This document shows positions 1,934 to 12,122 of a stretch of DNA of 64,000 nucleotides, in pieces (the stretch's first letter is position 1; every line of letters begins with the position of its first letter). The translations under genes were made by a program, and so were the position numbers. The notes under the pieces were generated by a model. That model was not told where the DNA came from. It saw nothing but the letters and a program-made list of their open reading frames with translations, and searched no databases. The stretch is from an uncultured Roseovarius sp. (lineage in GTDB: Bacteria; Pseudomonadota; Alphaproteobacteria; Rhodobacterales; Rhodobacteraceae): positions 1 to 64,000 of the forward strand of contig CANMFU010000003.1 in the NCBI GenBank assembly GCA_947497295.1. Reading direction: 5' to 3'.

Positions 1934-2067
1934 CAGTCGCGCCCCACCTTCGCGGGTTCAACCCGGTTTGCCTCGGCCCAAGCGTTCAGATCAGCGCCGC
2001 GATAGATGATCTTGCGTCCCAAGCGGTAGAACGCCGGCCCCATGCCCTTGTGACGCCACTTCGCCAA
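1933..2067 (-). pseudogene. 3' remnant of an AlpA/excisionase-like gene
   Basis: In a frame different from the adjoining integrase, 44 codons read LAKWRHKGMGPAFYRLGRK, then a short IIYRGADLNAWAE segment and a stop at 1933-1935. This is the characteristic second half of small winged-helix excisionase (AlpA/Xis-like) proteins. A stop codon lies immediately upstream at the junction with the integrase gene and no start is available. The 5' half was therefore lost in the deletion that also removed the 3' end of int. The stop overlaps the ATG of the downstream HTH gene. Confidence 0.65.
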
Positions 2068-2927
2068 CTAGTCCCGGTCTCGTCTGTCAGTGGCACCCGG
2101 TGATCCACCCCCGTCTTCATGCGGATCGCGGGGCAGGTCCAAAGCCGCGCGTCAAAGTCGATCTCTTCCCAGCGCAGGCCCAGCGCCTCGCCTGTCCTTG
2201 AGCCGGTCAAGCAGGTAAACATCAGCGCGTTTGCGGCCATAGCGTCGCGGGTCTTCAGATCGGCATAGAAGGCGGGGACGTCCTCCCATTTCATTGCGTT
2301 GTGATGTTTCACCTTGGTTTTAACCTTTGACAAAGCGTGCGCATCCTTGATCGCGGTCACGGGGTTCTCGCCATCGCGGAACCCTTTCGAGCGCGCGACG
2401 TCCAGCACAGTCTTGATCCGTTGCGCCAGCCGTTTCGCGGTTTCGTGCTTGTCCGTCCAGATCGGCGCAAGGCACATCATCACCTCGGGTTGGTCGATGC
2501 TGTCAATCGGCATCCGGCCAATCTTGGGAAAGGCATAGTCGCGTAGGGTGTTGATCCATTGTTGGCCATGCTTGGCGTTTTTCCACGTCGGCATCCGCTC
2601 GATATCGACCTGCTTGGCGAACTCTTCAAAGGTTGGCACCTTTTGGCGCACATTGAAACGCGGGTTCAGCCCCTGCTTGGCCATGCGGCGATATTCGAGC
2701 GCCCGCTCACGCGCCTGATTGAGCGTAACGATGTCCGCACCACCCAAACCAAAGTCAGTGCGCAGCGGCGCGCCCTTCTTGTTCTTTTGGCCTTTGACCA
2801 CCACCCGCACGATCCAGCGCCGCGCGCCGGATGGATCAACCACCAGATACAGCCCATTACCATCACCATGGCGCCCAGCGCCAAGATTCTCGACCAGTTT
2901 CTTTGTCACCTTGCCAGATCGGGCCAT
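1986..2927 (-). pseudogene. Tyrosine recombinase (P4-type integrase), catalytic end deleted
   Basis: Residues 1-90 form the DUF4102-like arm-binding domain of P4-type integrases (KVTKKLVENLGAGRHGDGNG, then YLVVDPSGARRWIVRV). A core-binding domain follows, then the first catalytic Arg region (TCLTGSRTGEALGLRWEE). Homology stops at RVPLTDE (around 2080). After that the frame runs out of phase through an excisionase gene (WRSGVTRAWGRR..). The HxLR box, the His/Trp box and the nucleophilic Tyr are all missing, so it cannot recombine DNA. The ATG chosen encodes MARSGK; an in-frame upstream start exists at 2942. It is divergent from the intact integrase across the 22-bp att copy at 3080. Confidence 0.8.
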
Positions 2928-3079
2928 CCGTAAATACCACATTCCATACCACTCAAGGGACGAATATAAGCATCATCGAAAGAAACTCAGGTCAAACCAA
3001 GGACCGCGTCAAAGCTATGCAAACAAAAGAAAAAGGCCGCCAAAGACGACCCATTCAAATTCTAGAAAATGCTAGTCTC

Positions 3080-3101
3080 GCGGAGCGACAGAGATTCGAA
3101 C
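3080..3101 (+). repeat. Attachment-site copy (att) of the tRNA-Ser 3' end
   Basis: These 22 bases equal 12035-12056 except for one A/G difference at the sixth base of the T-arm part. They copy the acceptor and T arm of the tRNA gene but lack the CCA-encoding bases that precede the gene copy at 12033-12035. It separates the decayed integrase on the left from the intact one on the right, so it serves as a boundary for both elements. Confidence 0.75.
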
Positions 3102-3200: not shown

Positions 3201-3249
3201 GCTATTGCTCGAAGTTTGCGACGTCGAGTGAGAAAGAAAGGTGGCACAG

Positions 3250-4575
3250 ATGGCAGGACTGATCAAGCGCGGACAAACCTGGCACCTGCGGATGCGGGTG
3301 CCCAAGCGGTATCTCGCCGTCGCTGGCCGCAAGGAAATCCACCGCAGCCTGGAGACCGACAGCGAGCGCCGTGCGCGCGAGTTGCTGCCTGATGTGAAGG
3401 CCAAACTGCTTGCCGAACTCGACCAGATGACGATCATCAGGGCGCGGCCGGACGACGCCGATGCATACCGCGCGGCGCAGAAGATCGCACAGGCCAGAGG
3501 CTTCGCCTACCGGCCGCTCTCCGACTTGCTGGAGGCACCTATGGAAGATCTACTGGAGCGCGTGGAGGTGGCGAGTGCCGATCCGGCCACAGAGACCGCC
3601 AAGGCGCTCCTCGGGGCTGTGGAAGAGCCCGCTCTACGGCTCTCTAACCTGGTCGATGAGGTCGAGCGCATCGCGGCCCACGACAACCGCTACAAGAGCG
3701 AGAACCAGATGCGCCTTTGGCGCAATCCGCGCAAACGGGCGGCTGCCAATCTGCAAGCCGCCCTCGGTGGCAGGGATGTGTTGGTGTCGGAGATCGACCA
3801 CGCCGCCGCGCTCAAGCACAAGGCGTGGTGGCAGAAAAAAATCGCCGCCGAGAATCTCTCGGTGGAGAGCGCCAACAAGGATTTTGCCAACATGGCCGGG
3901 ATGTTGCGACGCTACTACGAGAGCATCGCCCAGCCTGATCCCCCATTTCCGTATCACCGGGTCTCATTGAAGGACCGGCACAAGACCGAGAGCCGAAAAC
4001 TCGAGATTCCCGTGGATTGGATCACCGAGAAATGGTTCGCGCCTGGCGCCTTCGATGGCACCAACGCCGAAGCACGGGACATTCTGCTGATCTCAATCGA
4101 GACGGGATGCCGGCAGTCCGAGATTCACGACCTCCCGCCTGGTGCGTTCGTGCTCGATCATCCATTCCCGCACTTCGAGATCAAATTCGAGGACGGGGAC
4201 AACCGGCGTGAGATCAAGAACAGCGCATCCACGCGGGTCGTGCCCCTGGTCGGTGTCGCGCTGGCGGCGGCCAAGCGCCATCCCGATGGCTTTCCACGCT
4301 ATCGCGGCAAGAGCACCTACTCGGCGACGATGAACAAACATATGCGCAGCAATGGCCTGCTGCCGTCGCCAAATCACACCATCGGTGGCGTCCGCCATAC
4401 GTGGGAGAGTCGTCTCCTGGCGGAGACCAAGCGGATGGAACTCAGCGGCGAGATGATGGGCCACAGCGTCAAGCAGATTCGGGCGCGTCCGGTCTATGGC
4501 GATGCAATGGCATTGCCAGACAGGCACGCGCTGGCGAAAAGGGTTATGCTTCCAGTGCCGGACCACTTGGCATAG
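3250..4575 (+). CDS. Tyrosine-type recombinase/integrase (DUF6538 N-terminus)
   Basis: A 441-residue integrase that should cut and join the tRNA-Ser att sites. The N-terminus (GLIKRGQTWHLRMRVPKRYL) is a DUF6538-type arm-binding module. Residues about 130-230 are the core-binding SAM-like domain. Catalytic Arg288 lies in ETGCRQSEIHDL, Arg382 in IGGVRHTWE, His in MMGHS, and the likely nucleophile Tyr416 in RPVYGDA. In the second box the position usually occupied by His/Lys (three before Arg382) is Gly, which is unusual. The ATG at 3250 has AAGGTGG six bases upstream; a GTG at 3241 is in the same frame. The gene sits just inside the left att and its arm repeats, as expected for an element integrase. 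Confidence 0.88.
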   Translation: MAGLIKRGQTWHLRMRVPKRYLAVAGRKEIHRSLETDSERRARELLPDVKAKLLAELDQMTIIRARPDDADAYRAAQKIAQARGFAYRPLSDLLEAPMEDLLERVEVASADPATETAKALLGAVEEPALRLSNLVDEVERIAAHDNRYKSENQMRLWRNPRKRAAANLQAALGGRDVLVSEIDHAAALKHKAWWQKKIAAENLSVESANKDFANMAGMLRRYYESIAQPDPPFPYHRVSLKDRHKTESRKLEIPVDWITEKWFAPGAFDGTNAEARDILLISIETGCRQSEIHDLPPGAFVLDHPFPHFEIKFEDGDNRREIKNSASTRVVPLVGVALAAAKRHPDGFPRYRGKSTYSATMNKHMRSNGLLPSPNHTIGGVRHTWESRLLAETKRMELSGEMMGHSVKQIRARPVYGDAMALPDRHALAKRVMLPVPDHLA

Positions 4576-6763: not shown

Positions 6764-7990
6764 TCAGGGGTCGCCGACGCCCGGTTCAGAGCCTTTCGAA
6801 CGACCTTTCGCGCGCGGATCGAGGGCCATGATTTTCGCGGTGAGCTTGCGCCGGATCTGCGCGATCTTATGGCGCTGTCCGGATGGGAAGTGGCGAACGA
6901 TCTCGACGATCACATCATCGGCGGCCTTGATCTCGGCGATCTCGGCGGCGATGCGTTCCTCCGCCGCGCGCCTCGCCTTTGCCTCGGCGCTTGCCCGCAG
7001 TCGCTTCGCAGCGGTGCGGAAGGCCTTTCTCGCGGCGGCAAAGCCGCGGGTGGCCTTTCGAAGCAGCAAGGCCGATTGTTGCTTCGCGCCGGTATCGACG
7101 GGTTCGACCGCTCGCCCGTCCGCGTCGATCTCGCCCGCTGACACCGCATCGGCGAAGGCCAGGATCGCTGCTGCGTCCTCTTCGCGCTCAGCGACATCGC
7201 GCTCGCGCACCTCAACCTCAGCGGCCTTCCCGGCGAGGCGCCTCTCTTCTTTCGCCCGCCACTCTGCCGGGCGAACATGGCGCGGATTGACCGGCGGCGT
7301 CCGCCCATCGTTCAACGCATCGCGGATCGCCTGCTTGCGCCGTTCGCCGCGCGCAAGGCCGATCTCGCTGAACCATTCACCGACGCTGTCCTGCGCCGCC
7401 TCGTAATCCCTGATCAGCGGCTGGGCGGACGGTTGCAGCACCCGGCACTCTGTCCCGTATTTCTTGACCGTTGCGCGCGGCAAGATGACAGCGTGAATGT
7501 GATAGGCCTGCTCGTCGAGATCGGCGCGCGCGTGGATCACGTCATCGCCGAAATTCTCCCTGAGCCAGGCCACTGCAAGCTCCTCGAACTGCTCTTCGCG
7601 CGCGGTGCTGAACATCTCGTCACTGCTTTCCGTGTGCTCGAACCATTCCTTGTTGGCGGTGAGGATCAGCTCGCGCATTGGGCCGTGGCGGGAGGCGCGC
7701 CACGGATCGCGCGGCCCCTCAATGCGGCGTTTCGCCAGATCCTTGCGGCGATTGCGCCGGTCGAGATCCTCGAGTTCTGCCGCGAAGGTCTCGATCTTCA
7801 TCAGCTCGATCTCTGCCAGGGCTTCTTGCGCCCAAGTTTCGGTGCCGAGCAAGCGGCGCGGTGCGGGTTTGTTGCGGTCGATGTGGCCGAGATCGCCGCC
7901 GCGGCGCATGCGATGCGTCTCGTATCCGCCGATATCGCTCGGATCCATGCCCTCGAACCGCAGGACCACCGGGTATTTCTTGCTTGCCAT
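6764..7990 (-). CDS. MobV/Pre-type relaxase
   Basis: A 408-residue protein likely to nick the element at an origin of transfer. The start is ATG 7990 with GGAGGT five bases upstream; the longer TTG reading is unlikely. The metal-binding signature of MOBV enzymes (DE..xHxH) is seen as ADLDEQAYHIHAVILP near residue 155-170, followed by KKYGTECRVLQPS and LIRDYEAAQDSVGEWF as in plasmid mobilization proteins of alphaproteobacteria. From about residue 245 the protein becomes a long Arg/Ala/Glu-rich coiled coil. The Tyr nucleophile typical of other relaxases is not obvious, which is acceptable because MOBV enzymes may use His. Downstream genes at 6536 and 5908 share the strand. Confidence 0.72.
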   Translation of the reverse strand: MASKKYPVVLRFEGMDPSDIGGYETHRMRRGGDLGHIDRNKPAPRRLLGTETWAQEALAEIELMKIETFAAELEDLDRRNRRKDLAKRRIEGPRDPWRASRHGPMRELILTANKEWFEHTESSDEMFSTAREEQFEELAVAWLRENFGDDVIHARADLDEQAYHIHAVILPRATVKKYGTECRVLQPSAQPLIRDYEAAQDSVGEWFSEIGLARGERRKQAIRDALNDGRTPPVNPRHVRPAEWRAKEERRLAGKAAEVEVRERDVAEREEDAAAILAFADAVSAGEIDADGRAVEPVDTGAKQQSALLLRKATRGFAAARKAFRTAAKRLRASAEAKARRAAEERIAAEIAEIKAADDVIVEIVRHFPSGQRHKIAQIRRKLTAKIMALDPRAKGRSKGSEPGVGDP

Positions 7991-8002
7991 TTTGACCTCC
8001 AA

Positions 8003-8628
8003 AGATTGAGGTCAGGAAATGGGTTCATCTGTTTTTGGATCGGAACAAACAGTCAGCCATAGGCGCGAATGGATGTGCGGAGAGATTACTCACTAAACAG
8101 CCCGCACTCCGGCGCCTTCGGCACCTCTGTTCGGCCTGCCGTTCGTCCGGGCGCTGCCCCGGAACCCCGCCCGCCGGGGGCGCCTGTGCAGCGGGCACTC
8201 CTGCGCGGAGGGCGGCAAGGTCATCGTTCCGCACCCCCCTTGCATCCCCTGCTCCCGGGGGAGCGTCGTTCCGCACTCCTCCCCCGAACCCCCGCCTGCT
8301 CGCAGGGGCTGTTCGCCACGCCCCTGCACCCACTGGCGTCTTCCGACGGGCTGGGAGCATTGCGCATCTCCCAGACGTCAAGCCACCAGACGATTGGTCG
8401 GTTAGTTTCGGGTATCAGCTAGTAAGCGCCCCTCTCCATCCAGGGCACGCTTCTTGCGACCCGCTCTGGATGGAGAGAGCGGCAACAGAAATAAATAATC
8501 AAACTTAGCCCACGGCTAACCCTTTTCACGCAGTTTGCATTACCGGGCGCCGGAAAATCCGAGAGCAGGCAGCTTACTCGTCATTGGCCTCCATATCTAA
8601 TACGCTGAAAAACGCCGGCTACGAAATT
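8003..8628. other. Long non-coding stretch between relaxase and AIPR gene, candidate oriT region
   Basis: About 626 bp with no credible gene; the open frames present are GC-driven and have no conserved look. It lies directly upstream of the relaxase start, the usual position of oriT. Contents: a very GC-rich part (8100-8330) with TCGTTCCGCAC repeated at 8224-8234 and 8266-8276, and an inverted repeat at 8432-8477 described separately. The right third turns AT-richer towards the AIPR 3' end. No T-tract terminator is seen. Confidence 0.45.
8432..8477. repeat. Inverted repeat with 12-bp perfect arms, loop sharing a 13-mer with 10698-10747
   Basis: Arms CTCTCCATCCAG (8432-8443) and CTGGATGGAGAG (8466-8477) flank a 22-nt loop. 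The loop contains CGCTTCTTGCGAC (8448-8460), identical to the loop and inner stem of another long hairpin at 10698-10747 whose arms are unrelated. No U-tract follows on either strand, so it is not a simple terminator. Possible oriT or recombination hairpin. Confidence 0.7.
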
Positions 8629-10428
8629 TTATTTCGTACGTAGCTCAACTTGCCCCACAAATTTTAAAAATGTCGATTTATGGGGTTCTTTCAGTGAGTC
8701 CACTACCCCAACAAAATTAGGTATTACCTTAACTACAGATTCATTGGTGACCCTGTCCCTTGAGAAAGCCCCGTCCAGCTGGCTAGAAAGCGACAGGAAC
8801 ATATCTACAATTGGCAGCCATATTTTTTCGCCGTGAGTTGGTGACACATTTCTTTTAAATTGCAAATCTATCCTATTTGATATGGCTTTACCGACAATGG
8901 TCTCCATGCATTCCGACGCTGCCCAGACAAGTAAGTAAGCTGAACCCTTCCTGTTAAGGAAGATAAGCGATCTTTCCTCAACTGAGGTTAATCCGCTCGC
9001 TTTCTGCTTTTGTCCAAGTGCAATTTTTCGGGAGTTTATGCCAGACAGAAGAGAATAGCAGAATACAATATGCCTAGCAGAAGTTCTGTCGGTAAATATT
9101 TGTCGGTAATGTTTTTCATTCGTCCAAAGCTCAGATTTCTTGTCATATGCGGTGACTGGATCACCATGAAACGCAGCTAGAGCCTGCCCGACGGTGTAAG
9201 ATGGGAGGGTATATTTACTCCTCCTGATGATATCACTTGCCCCACCCCTCCGGCCGCCTTCATATTCGGCGTTTGGAATGGTCTCGAATTCTGATCTTAG
9301 TCTTTCCTGTATAGGGTCATTGCTCCTGAAATCGGCTGCTTGAATTTTGTTTTGCGTATTATTGTACTGCACGACGCTTGATACGATCGATTCACGTGCA
9401 GATTTGACAAACTTGATGGCAACCTTAAGGTCTTTGGGTGGTGCAAATCCTAAACTTGAGATTGACCCTGTCGTTTGAGCTCCATTGACAATTGACATCC
9501 CATATATAACAAGTTTCCTACCAGCCTTCGTCTTTCTACCAAGTTCATAATTCAAGACTACTGCGGTGATCCCGTTATTATAAACGTAGAAGTTTTCAGG
9601 CTCTTCCCTTGCTGTGTTTTTTATCCCATTATTTATGTTTGAGTCACTTTGTCGGGAGCCAAGATACCCCCTGAGGTTCGCGGAGAATAAGTCAGTTTGG
9701 TGTGTGCTATATAAGCCGCTGAGCCATTCACCGGATACCACAGTGGAAAGCGCACTCCAATCATCACTTTTGACTTCATATGCATCGGGAACAACCGTTT
9801 CCAGTCTGTCAGTTACAATAATTGTCCTCTCAGCTTGTGTATATAGCCTCTCCAGAGTTTAACTGCATATCTCATCAGAAAAGACGCTTACATCCTTGCC
9901 TCCATCAAGATGCTTCAAGGCGCTTTTTGCTGTTGTTTCTACACCTATCAATTCTTTTTTCACATTTTTCGATGGAGGTAAATTATGGACATACCAAATA
10001 TGCAGTTGACGCACTTCTCCTTGCGCGACTGCCACTCGCAGTTCCTCTGCACGCCCCTTCAATCCTTCTGGCAGATGTTCGATGTCAGTGCCTAAAAGCC
10101 AAGTCACCGCTGTATTTAGATCAGACGCCTTGTTTGAGGGGGCCGCGTCTTTCGCCTTCTGTGACATGTAACACTGTCCGAGCACAGCAATTTGCTTTTC
10201 TTTGTCAACATATAAAACGTCACACTTTTTGTCGTCGCCGCCGCCTGTGATGGACTCACTAGCAATCGTTTGGAAGTCGTCCAGCCCGAACCGTAGGTTG
10301 ATAGCGAAGACGCCGAGAGCATCGCTTCCCAGAGGGAAATCTTCCTGAAGCTGGGAAAATGATTTTTCCCAATTATTTGTAAGCGTCGGAACTGCAATGG
10401 TGCTGTCGTTAATAAGAATTGGACCTGA
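8629..10428 (-). pseudogene. AIPR-family abortive-infection protein gene, interrupted by one in-frame stop
   Basis: Two pieces lie in exactly the same frame, separated only by TAA at 9859-9861. The 5' part reads DALGVFAINLRFGLDDFQTI, GGGDDKKCDVLYVDKE and AVLGQCYMSQ, the nuclease-like N-terminal region of AIPR proteins. The 3' part has LFSANLRGYLG, NNGIKNTAREEPENFYVYNN and SIVNGAQTTGSIS, the hallmark AIPR (PF10592) core. A CAA-to-TAA change would explain the stop. No ATG, GTG or TTG exists between the upstream stop (10429-10431) and the conserved N-terminal block, so the start is either a rare ATT or also lost. AIPR proteins are linked to phage resistance. It is either a recent pseudogene or a split protein: the 3' part could start at GTG 9741. 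Confidence 0.75.
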
Positions 10429-10802
10429 TTAGCCTGATTTATGGGGAGCCTAGTGCCTAACCACCAGGGATGCCAGCCCCTCTACTTGCCGGTTTGGGAC
10501 CGCAGATCCTTATGAAGGTGAGGCCGTTACCTTGAATTTTTAAAAGGGAAGTTACGGCGCTTGGTCATGTGCCTGATTGGATCGATTGCAGGTGAAACAT
10601 ATTCGGACCGGTATCAGTTCTCTTTCTACCCCATCCCTGAAGCTACCACACTGTCAAATTTTGACGAGAGGCCGCCCCCTCGTCGCTCTCCCGATAGGGC
10701 TCCCGCTTTGCCGCGCGCTTCTTGCGACGCGCAGCAAATCGGGAGCCTTGAACAAAGGGGTTCCACCGCTGGTGTCTTTTTCACACAGCAAGGAGACCTC
10801 GA
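10429..10802. other. Intergenic region between AIPR and PemK-like genes
   Basis: About 374 bp between divergent genes, so it should hold both promoters. No protein-coding signal is seen. The main structure is the long inverted repeat at 10698-10747. AAGGAGA is placed seven bases before the ATG at 10803. Promoter boxes could not be assigned with confidence. Confidence 0.5.
10698..10747. repeat. Inverted repeat with 20-bp arms (18/20 paired) carrying the shared 13-mer
   Basis: The left arm 10698-10717 starts GGCTCCCG and the right arm 10728-10747 ends CGGGAGCC. Two mismatches interrupt the 20-bp stem, and the loop is 10 nt. CGCTTCTTGCGAC at 10716-10728 is identical and in the same orientation to 8448-8460 in the other hairpin. 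Neither strand shows a following T-run. Together the two hairpins bracket the AIPR gene. Confidence 0.7.
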
Positions 10803-11312: not shown

Positions 11313-11362
11313 GGAACCGCGCTCTCGACGCCTCCCCCCACCCATCATCAACAAGGATAAAT

Positions 11363-11809
11363 ATGATGAACACCATTACTTTCCCGTCCGGCATCAACAT
11401 CAGCGCATTGGCCGCCGAATGCATCAGCCTCGCCCGGATCTCGGCGACCGGCATCGAAGAGGATGTGCTGGACCTCGCGTTGCCAGCCACCAAGCAGATC
11501 GCAACTGTGCTGCTGTCCAACATCCGCCAAGGAACCCTTATAAACAATGGCGTGCTGACGCTGCTCGAAGCTCTTCTCGACGCCATCGACGATGAGATCG
11601 AGGAAGGCACGCGATGGATCACCCGCTACGACCACAGCGAGGAGAATGTTTCCGGCAATACAAGCTGGCAGGAGACAACTTACAGCCCCGAGGCGGAGCG
11701 TCTGATTAACATTTTCGTGGTGCTGGAGGAGTTCCACGTCCTTCTCTTGCAGCTCTATGCCACCCTGCAAGCAGAAAAGACGCTGACGGTCCTTCGCGCG
11801 GCGTCATAA
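11363..11809 (+). CDS. Helical hypothetical protein following the PemK-like gene
   Basis: A 148-residue acidic protein predicted to be mostly alpha-helical, with amphipathic segments such as LTLLEALLDAIDDEIEEGTR and a C-terminal leucine-rich helix (FHVLLLQLYATLQAEKTL). AAGGAT lies seven bases before ATG 11363; a second ATG follows at once. It starts 50 bp after the PemK-like gene on the same strand, so they are likely cotranscribed. It may be the partner or regulator of that gene, but it has no DNA-binding motif typical of MazE-like antitoxins. No family is recognised. Confidence 0.55.
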   Translation: MMNTITFPSGINISALAAECISLARISATGIEEDVLDLALPATKQIATVLLSNIRQGTLINNGVLTLLEALLDAIDDEIEEGTRWITRYDHSEENVSGNTSWQETTYSPEAERLINIFVVLEEFHVLLLQLYATLQAEKTLTVLRAAS

Positions 11810-12032: not shown

Positions 12033-12122
12033 TGGCGGAGCGACAGGGATTCGAACCCTGGAGACGGTCTCCCGCCTACACACTTTCCAGGCGTGCGCCT
12101 TCGACCACTCGGCCACCGCTCC
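12033..12122 (-). tRNA. tRNA-Ser (anticodon GGA)
   Basis: A 90-nt serine tRNA with a long variable arm. The acceptor 5' end GGAGCGG pairs with TCGCTCC, followed by a G discriminator and an encoded CCA (12033-12035). The D arm starts GGCCGAGTGG, the anticodon loop reads CTGGAAA, and the T loop is GGTTCGAATCC. It decodes UCC/UCU. Its 3' end faces left and is the integration point of the mobile element: bases 12035-12056 are repeated at 3080-3101. Integration regenerates the acceptor, so the gene remains whole. Confidence 0.95.
12035..12056 (+). repeat. Attachment-site copy within the tRNA-Ser gene
   Basis: This 22-bp stretch spans the T arm and acceptor of the tRNA gene and is the right-hand partner of 3080-3101 (one mismatch). 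It marks the boundary between the element and the chromosome. Confidence 0.75.

Follow-up and report, generated by a model that had tools for sequence, protein, structure and literature searches.

Integron attC sites have conserved ends and a variable middle, and their recombination point falls inside the site, within which the cassette ends lie. In defence islands and hotspots, different defence systems are reportedly swapped between constant flanks. In plasmid pMV158 it is the mob coding strand that is transferred, and in MOBV1 plasmids oriT is found directly at the mob gene (PMC5863519). Here we compare with these systems, throughout by sequence comparison, a mobile element in a 64,000-nucleotide (nt) stretch of Roseovarius DNA (hereafter the window), in which a pair of hairpins brackets a defence gene. 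Our best explanation, to which we give a probability of about 0.42 as a whole, combines four elements: a module made of a hairpin (LH) and the gene behind it, an adjacent slot in which defence cargo is swapped, an ancestral LH that was doubled around the cargo, and a role of LH as a single-strand control site. The family, its covariation, the slot and the positions are read from the sequence; the single-strand function is inferred.

The host element is approximately 9 kb long and is sited at a tRNA-Ser gene (Table 1). Between its probable attachment repeats lie, from left to right, a DUF6538 protein that is probably the element's tyrosine integrase, the MobV-type relaxase, the defence cargo and, behind the right hairpin, a gene for a MazF-fold protein. 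The relaxase domain scores 27.2 bits against Pfam Mob_Pre (cut-off 25.5), and 44.8 bits against the NCBIfam MobV model, under its cut-off of 100. The perfect inverted repeat at the relaxase start is a candidate oriT by analogy with its position in pMV158. Two more MobV-like relaxases are encoded in the same genome (G000:C2:305243-306433 and G000:C9:8080-9165), and a second, apparently shortened tyrosine integrase with Arm, core and partial catalytic domains (1986-2942, minus strand) sits just outside the presumed left attachment site. The cargo has a G+C content of 46% versus 61% for the window. As stated in a preliminary description of this DNA, its AIPR/AbiU reading frame alone lies between the hairpins; the frame is split by one in-frame stop, and the gene may therefore be inactive.

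Table 1 Features of the element and its surroundings, in window coordinates
Feature	Position	Strand	Remarks
Copy of tRNA-Ser 3′ end, probable left attachment site	3080..3101	+	22 nt, 95% match to 12035-12056
DUF6538 protein	3241..4575	+	Presumed tyrosine integrase of the element
MobV-type (Mob_Pre) relaxase	6764..7990	-	HxDExxxxHxH-like motif and start codon identified by inspection
Perfect 7-bp inverted repeat TGACCTC-N8-GAGGTCA	7993..8014	+	Just upstream of relaxase start
GTCTTCCGACGG motif, then small inverted repeat (CTGGGAG...CTCCCAG)	8338..8374	+	Similar motif left of LH in most near-empty elements
Left hairpin, putative LH copy on relaxase side	8432..8477	+	Loop CTTCTTGCGA at 8450-8459
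Cargo, AIPR/AbiU-type defence gene	8629..10430	-	Split by in-frame stop at 9859-9861
Small inverted repeat and GCTCTCCC	10666..10692	+	Immediately left of LH in many relatives
Right hairpin, LH proper	10698..10747	+	Loop CTTCTTGCGA at 10718-10727
MazF/PemK-fold protein, 169 aa	10803..11312	+	Fold; Pfam score below cut-off
Small ORF downstream of MazF-fold gene	11348..11809	+	No Pfam match
tRNA-Ser (GGA), probable integration target	12033..12122	-	Matching repeat at 12035-12056

The two hairpins share the 13-mer CGCTTCTTGCGAC (8448-8460 and 10716-10728) in identical orientation. The left hairpin has 12 perfect outer pairs and an apical stem that is weakly paired or partly mispaired; the right one has arms of 20 nt, 18 of them paired, and the MazF-fold gene begins 55 nt downstream of it. 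Folded as single-stranded DNA, both beat their shuffled versions on either strand (z from -4.3 to -6.5). At gathering score, Rfam matched tRNA alone in the window, and neither hairpin. The 13-mer occurs exactly twice in the 3,924,911-base genome, where approximately 0.16 occurrences would be expected at an assumed G+C content of 64%. Arms, positions and genome count thus bear out the earlier claim of two hairpins with a common loop in one orientation, and random copies, which would have spoken against a special role of the loop, do not occur elsewhere in the genome. Among relatives, the 13-mer is found in 28 of 194 genomes (own included) at 31 places, compared with about 45 places for a reversed control pattern; without an excess over this control, it was rejected as a marker on its own. 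The suggested search for the 13-mer in hairpins of relatives did find a pair around different cargo, in genome G092: of the 29 places that lie outside the window, these two alone belong to a long matching hairpin; the other 27 had no long stem, those in L021 and L022 having short ones. A 15-mer version, searched in viral contigs and 121 relatives of G092, had a matching stem, among the 134 matches listed, in G092's two places only, and an 18-mer version had no match in viral contigs. A plasmid search with the left hairpin region gave no match, and one with the right hairpin region gave three records, one of which is a Sulfitobacter relative.

A constant loop within variable stems, as first described for this pair, extends far beyond the window. 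Mobile elements of Rhodobacterales carry a family of hairpins, LH, with a freely varying, co-varying stem around a loop of approximately 10 nt that ends in about TTGTGA, which precedes a MazF/PemK-fold gene at a short and fairly constant spacing of some tens of bases. In a fixed-arm scan, 88 of 105 entries show a hairpin no more than 140 bp ahead of the gene, as opposed to 99 of 1,050 random places in the same loci; the entries are distinct genes after reduction, with one gene in two pieces (L032) counted twice. Some of the entries missed are at contig ends, and L101, L108 and L145 have their hairpin at 118-122 bp. Loop length is 10 nt in 62 of the 88 hairpins, and in these the ninth base is always G (62/62), the eighth mostly T (57/62) and the tenth mostly A (54/62); the closing CGCG is the only constant sequence of the stem. 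Across 43 aligned hairpins, 95.7% of cells are paired and 174 are changed on both sides, giving a covariation score of 0.699 (0.167 when shuffled, at most 0.105 when slid). In L080, unrelated sequence takes the place of the outer left LH arm, in a region approximately 130-55 bp ahead of the gene start (at 10001), and the loop and right arm are kept.

We built a covariance model, R1, from 43 of the 59 distinct hairpins with a 10-nt loop. By this model the right hairpin is one member of the family (46 bits, E 4.7e-12, itself among the 43 sequences), and the left hairpin matches weakly (14.7 bits, E 0.057). R1, whose E-values are rough, matches in 40 of 394 family genomes at E ≤ 1e-3. The best 28 places (E ≤ 1e-7) are all beside the gene, 27 of them within approximately 130 bp and one at 695 bp; many are in the model alignment, so that the informative part is the absence of strong matches elsewhere. 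Among the 23 weaker matches (E 1e-7 to 1e-3), seven are beside the gene, one is the left copy of G510 and 15 are elsewhere; at five of these 15 (L334, L335, L337, L339 and L342), no MazF-fold gene was seen by tblastn. Of 84 genomes of the window's genus (own included), 13 match at E ≤ 1e-3; besides the window, the gene was confirmed at G039, G056 and G020, and tblastn did not see it at the genus-scan matches L364-L368.

The AlphaFold model of the downstream protein (pLDDT 80.9) has a MazF fold, and a structure search gave nine PDB matches at E ≤ 1e-3, all of them MazF or mRNA interferase. The Pfam PemK_toxin cut-off of 23.1 bits is not reached by the window protein (17.6 bits) or by that of L034 (23.0 bits), a near-empty element on a plasmid of Cereibacter sphaeroides. 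RPCLVL and GTS motifs, presumably of catalytic meaning, are present in the MazF-fold alignment, and the predicted structure suggests a toxin-like protein. The gene occurs in 34 of 394 family genomes, in at least 62 loci of named genomes, in 17 plasmid records and in three viral contigs. In the Sulfitobacter pontiacus plasmid pls1 (L032, 8148-9912), it is interrupted by approximately 1.2 kb of other DNA.

Wobble pairs in the stems point to the strand that folds. On a 68-protein tree analysed by parsimony, mismatch events that would be G.T pairs on the strand opposite the gene number 36, compared with 10 on the gene-sense strand, and at pairs 2-12 the count is 23 versus 3 (p 9e-5); a cruder count gives 49 versus 15 cells, or 27 versus 13 distinct events (p 0.04). 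The register-choosing scan favoured gene-sense G.T, so its bias runs against this result. The count is without L132, L134, L161, L169, L170, L171, L174 and L178, which are doubtful in register or motif, and without short-protein loci and duplicate stems; L132 and L134 remain among the 88 hairpins. The left stem of G445 has G.T pairs on the gene-sense strand. Taken together, the folding strand would be the one opposite the MazF-fold gene, that is, the gene's template, and part of the asymmetry could reflect a mutational strand bias. A fold in the mRNA leader was considered and is disfavoured by the wobble asymmetry.

The same asymmetry would equally fit G.U pairs in a transcript of that strand, and the main rival to a single-strand control site is that LH is an antisense or other RNA from the opposite strand that controls the MazF-fold gene, like an RNA antitoxin or a copy-control RNA. 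The short, fairly constant spacing to the gene, the persistence of LH without a relaxase and the MazF fold of the neighbouring protein all suit such an RNA. However, that strand has no terminator-like T-run at the window hairpins, Rfam gives no match at gathering score, and left copies occur without such a gene adjoining. We therefore hold an RNA to be rather unlikely.

We next consider the relaxase, which had been suggested as one enzyme that could recognize the hairpins. In 64 entries without MobV, many of them on short contigs, hmmsearch with a relaxase profile gave one clear match (L126), which lies on the other side, and a marginal one (L173). Pfam searches of ten proteins, nine of them left neighbours of the gene in relaxase-free loci, gave no relaxase. 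LH thus appears tied to the MazF-fold gene, given its short, steady distance and its persistence where no MobV was found, and recognition by the relaxase is correspondingly weakened. The more specific idea that the MobV relaxase nicks the hairpins as oriT-type sites, with two copies allowing cargo to be deleted or exchanged, draws on the loop end TTGTGA, which in our reading loosely resembles the sequence around the pMV158 G/T nick, on the shared strand with the mob coding sequence, and on a similar relaxase-to-LH distance across elements with little or no cargo. Yet LH is kept where MobV was not found, its spacing follows the MazF-fold gene, and a separate inverted repeat stands at the mob start; rather than right upstream of mob, where an oriT would be placed, LH lies approximately 460 bp away or farther. 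Nicking at LH is accordingly distinctly unlikely.

Between the relaxase and the MazF-fold gene, relatives hold a wide range of defence genes. The two genes are more than 1.5 kb apart in 26 loci, and two further cargo elements, L352 and L351 (the latter with the gene end off the contig), bring the set to 28. Three elements have both hairpins (the window, G092/L033 and G445/L352), and these combine common flanks with different defence cargo; in G092 an N6-methyltransferase gene lies between the same flanks, in a cargo that presumably also holds an IS66-type insertion. PADLOC matched a model at E ≤ 1e-5 in 16 of 18 scanned elements: AbiU, methyltransferases, DarTG, a caspase model, NaeI-type restriction-modification (named from the record annotation), DRT UG13a, Gabija, DRT3, SIR2-HerA (twice), helicase-DUF2290, PifA, PglX-like and AriA/PtuA-like; a weak ThsA match is SIR2 plus STAND by Pfam. 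The scan covered one to three large ORFs per element and left out L078, L094, L105 and L141 (4/28). For six further elements, Pfam found defence-linked domains in four, and in L089 and L164 no clear link. No PADLOC model matched in L148 and L152, whose large slot proteins (L148 12102-17488; L152 12161-13585) are candidate unknown defence systems. According to its annotation, a relative on a Thioclava plasmid carries a retron beside the relaxase. Judged from the genes that it holds, the interval between the relaxase and the LH-gene module is a slot for swapped defence systems, and the suggestion that the segment between the hairpins is exchangeable cargo is upheld by the three elements with both hairpins and by the further systems found in relatives. 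With relatives carrying the same kind of hairpin beside a toxin-like gene and many defence genes in the slot, the hairpin is a real landmark.

Near-empty elements (n = 14, gap at most 1,152 bp) have a single LH, with a median relaxase-to-loop distance of 462 bp (range 359-1,065; L161, L169 and L170 are of doubtful register). The four left copies lie at similar distances from the relaxase, approximately 472 bp in the window, 448 bp in G092, 410 bp in G445 and 466 bp in G510, with LH-model scores of 14.7, 34.9, 22.5 and 28.8 bits, respectively. The pair therefore looks like one ancestral LH present twice around the cargo, and in our reading the left hairpin would be the LH of the relaxase side. 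A motif of the GTCTTCCGACGG kind, found left of LH in most near-empty elements, precedes the left copy in the window and G092 and, by eye, in G510. A left copy with this loop is seen in 4 of the 28 cargo-bearing elements. In six further close relatives, no left copy was seen and the left flank ends at 8329-8346 (window coordinates), and in another subgroup the motif is to the right of the cargo, so the insertion point within the interval is not fixed. L140, L078 and L153 have strong hairpins with other loops (TTGCGG, TTTCGG) close to the cargo's left end, at approximately 373 bp from the relaxase in L140 and 377 bp in L078 and L153. Across the group, 11 of 435 pairs of loops are identical, whereas in the three elements with both hairpins the left and right loops agree every time; these three elements are related, so the identity is suggestive only and may come from common ancestry. 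G510 has a left loop with one differing base, and the contig does not reach the right end of this element.

Breakpoints bear on the idea that the hairpins are paired cut sites. On the right, homology to relatives begins at 10659, with approximately 40 bp still to go to the hairpin. The left-hand end depends on the relative: 8376 for G092, 8367 for G445 and, for G510, 8474, the far edge of the hairpin. The right breakpoint speaks against exchange inside the hairpins, and the mixed picture on the left leaves room for it, the G510 end being the more favourable to that idea. Apart from the stretch around the loop (13, 18 and 15 nt), no exact match of at least 9 nt is common to the left and right flanks. 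Stems are intact on both sides of the elements with both hairpins, an arm pattern by which crossover in the loop is disfavoured, L080 being a possible exception. The few left copies, the outside right breakpoint and the self-complementary stems together give no support to cutting at both loops.

These observations weigh on a single-strand recombination site, attC-like in its logic, with cargo cassettes exchanged between hairpins. Three elements with like hairpins and different cargo, a bottom-strand fold that recalls attC and the end of the G510 homology at the hairpin edge are all in keeping with it. We nevertheless consider it improbable, as a left copy is present in only 4 of 28 cargo elements, the right breakpoint is outside the hairpin and the stems are self-complementary on both sides; moreover, as the preliminary description had already pointed out, LH has a conserved loop and varying stems in place of conserved ends. 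In a variant, LH would be a new kind of single-strand site, read through its loop on one particular strand, by which the elements capture and exchange defence cargo; the stems would be copied anew from the incoming side, which would keep each site self-complementary after exchange. Among 107 close pairs, which are not independent, the stem is less diverged than the flanks in 67, with no clear sign of excess divergence in stems, and the recopying idea is left to rest on L080 and L120; we regard it as quite improbable. That the hairpins are ordinary transcription terminators or insulators around the cargo is highly improbable and was rejected: strong stems at gene borders, short T-runs after LH in some relatives (L077, L032) and a similar hairpin between two unrelated genes in L364 would suit it, but on inspection no T-run follows the window hairpins on either strand, in agreement with the initial view and in departure from the G+C-rich stem and T-run of intrinsic terminators, most relative loci read by eye lack one as well, and a terminator does not need a conserved 10-nt loop.

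We thus return to LH as part of a module with the MazF-fold gene. In the small clade of the window, cargo would have come to lie beside an ancestral LH, with the left copy kept at the ancestral distance to the relaxase and the right copy at the ancestral distance to the MazF-fold gene. Cargo would probably be swapped through ordinary homologous recombination in the conserved flanks and not by cutting at the loops. LH itself may act as a folded single strand, the template strand of the MazF-fold gene, which by analogy with pMV158 would be the transferred strand. From this analogy, we propose that LH is a single-strand control site, either of the gene or of strand processing in mobilisation. Against this explanation, LH is present in many loci where no MobV was found, and a separate inverted repeat stands at the mob start. 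The stems are unlike known single-strand promoters, the left hairpin of the window is degenerate, and left homology to G510 ends at the hairpin edge.

A conserved loop on a free stem, with a clear folded strand beside a MazF-fold gene, poses a concrete question, open to experiment, about the use of single-stranded DNA or antisense RNA by mobile elements. The covariance model offers a sequence-level handle on a family of Rhodobacterales mobile elements with varied defence cargo, and since the slot holds many defence systems, its unknown genes are candidates for new defences.

We found no description of this hairpin or slot in the literature, which does not prove that none exists. Like defence hotspots, the locus has constant flanks, here a MobV relaxase and a hairpin-MazF-fold module, a combination that we did not find described. 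The MazF-fold protein resembles type II MazF/PemK toxins in its fold and its RPCLVL and GTS motifs, and differs by a long C-terminal helix, the upstream hairpin and a Pfam score below the cut-off. With integron attC, as portrayed in PMC2727003, LH shares a folded bottom strand and little sequence conservation; it differs by its conserved loop, its near-perfect stem and a right breakpoint outside the hairpin. The Frpo/ssi single-strand promoters of plasmid leading regions are similar in that the template strand folds shortly before a gene, and searches for Frpo rest on −35/−10 sequences (PMC11541004), whereas in LH only the closing pairs of the stem are constant; judged from stem conservation, the folded stem would lack −35/−10 elements. 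Finally, the oriT of pMV158 and MOBV1 plasmids, in the account given in PMC5863519, likewise has inverted repeats near a MobV relaxase gene, but LH lies approximately 460 bp or several kilobases away, is tied to another gene and is kept where no MobV was found.
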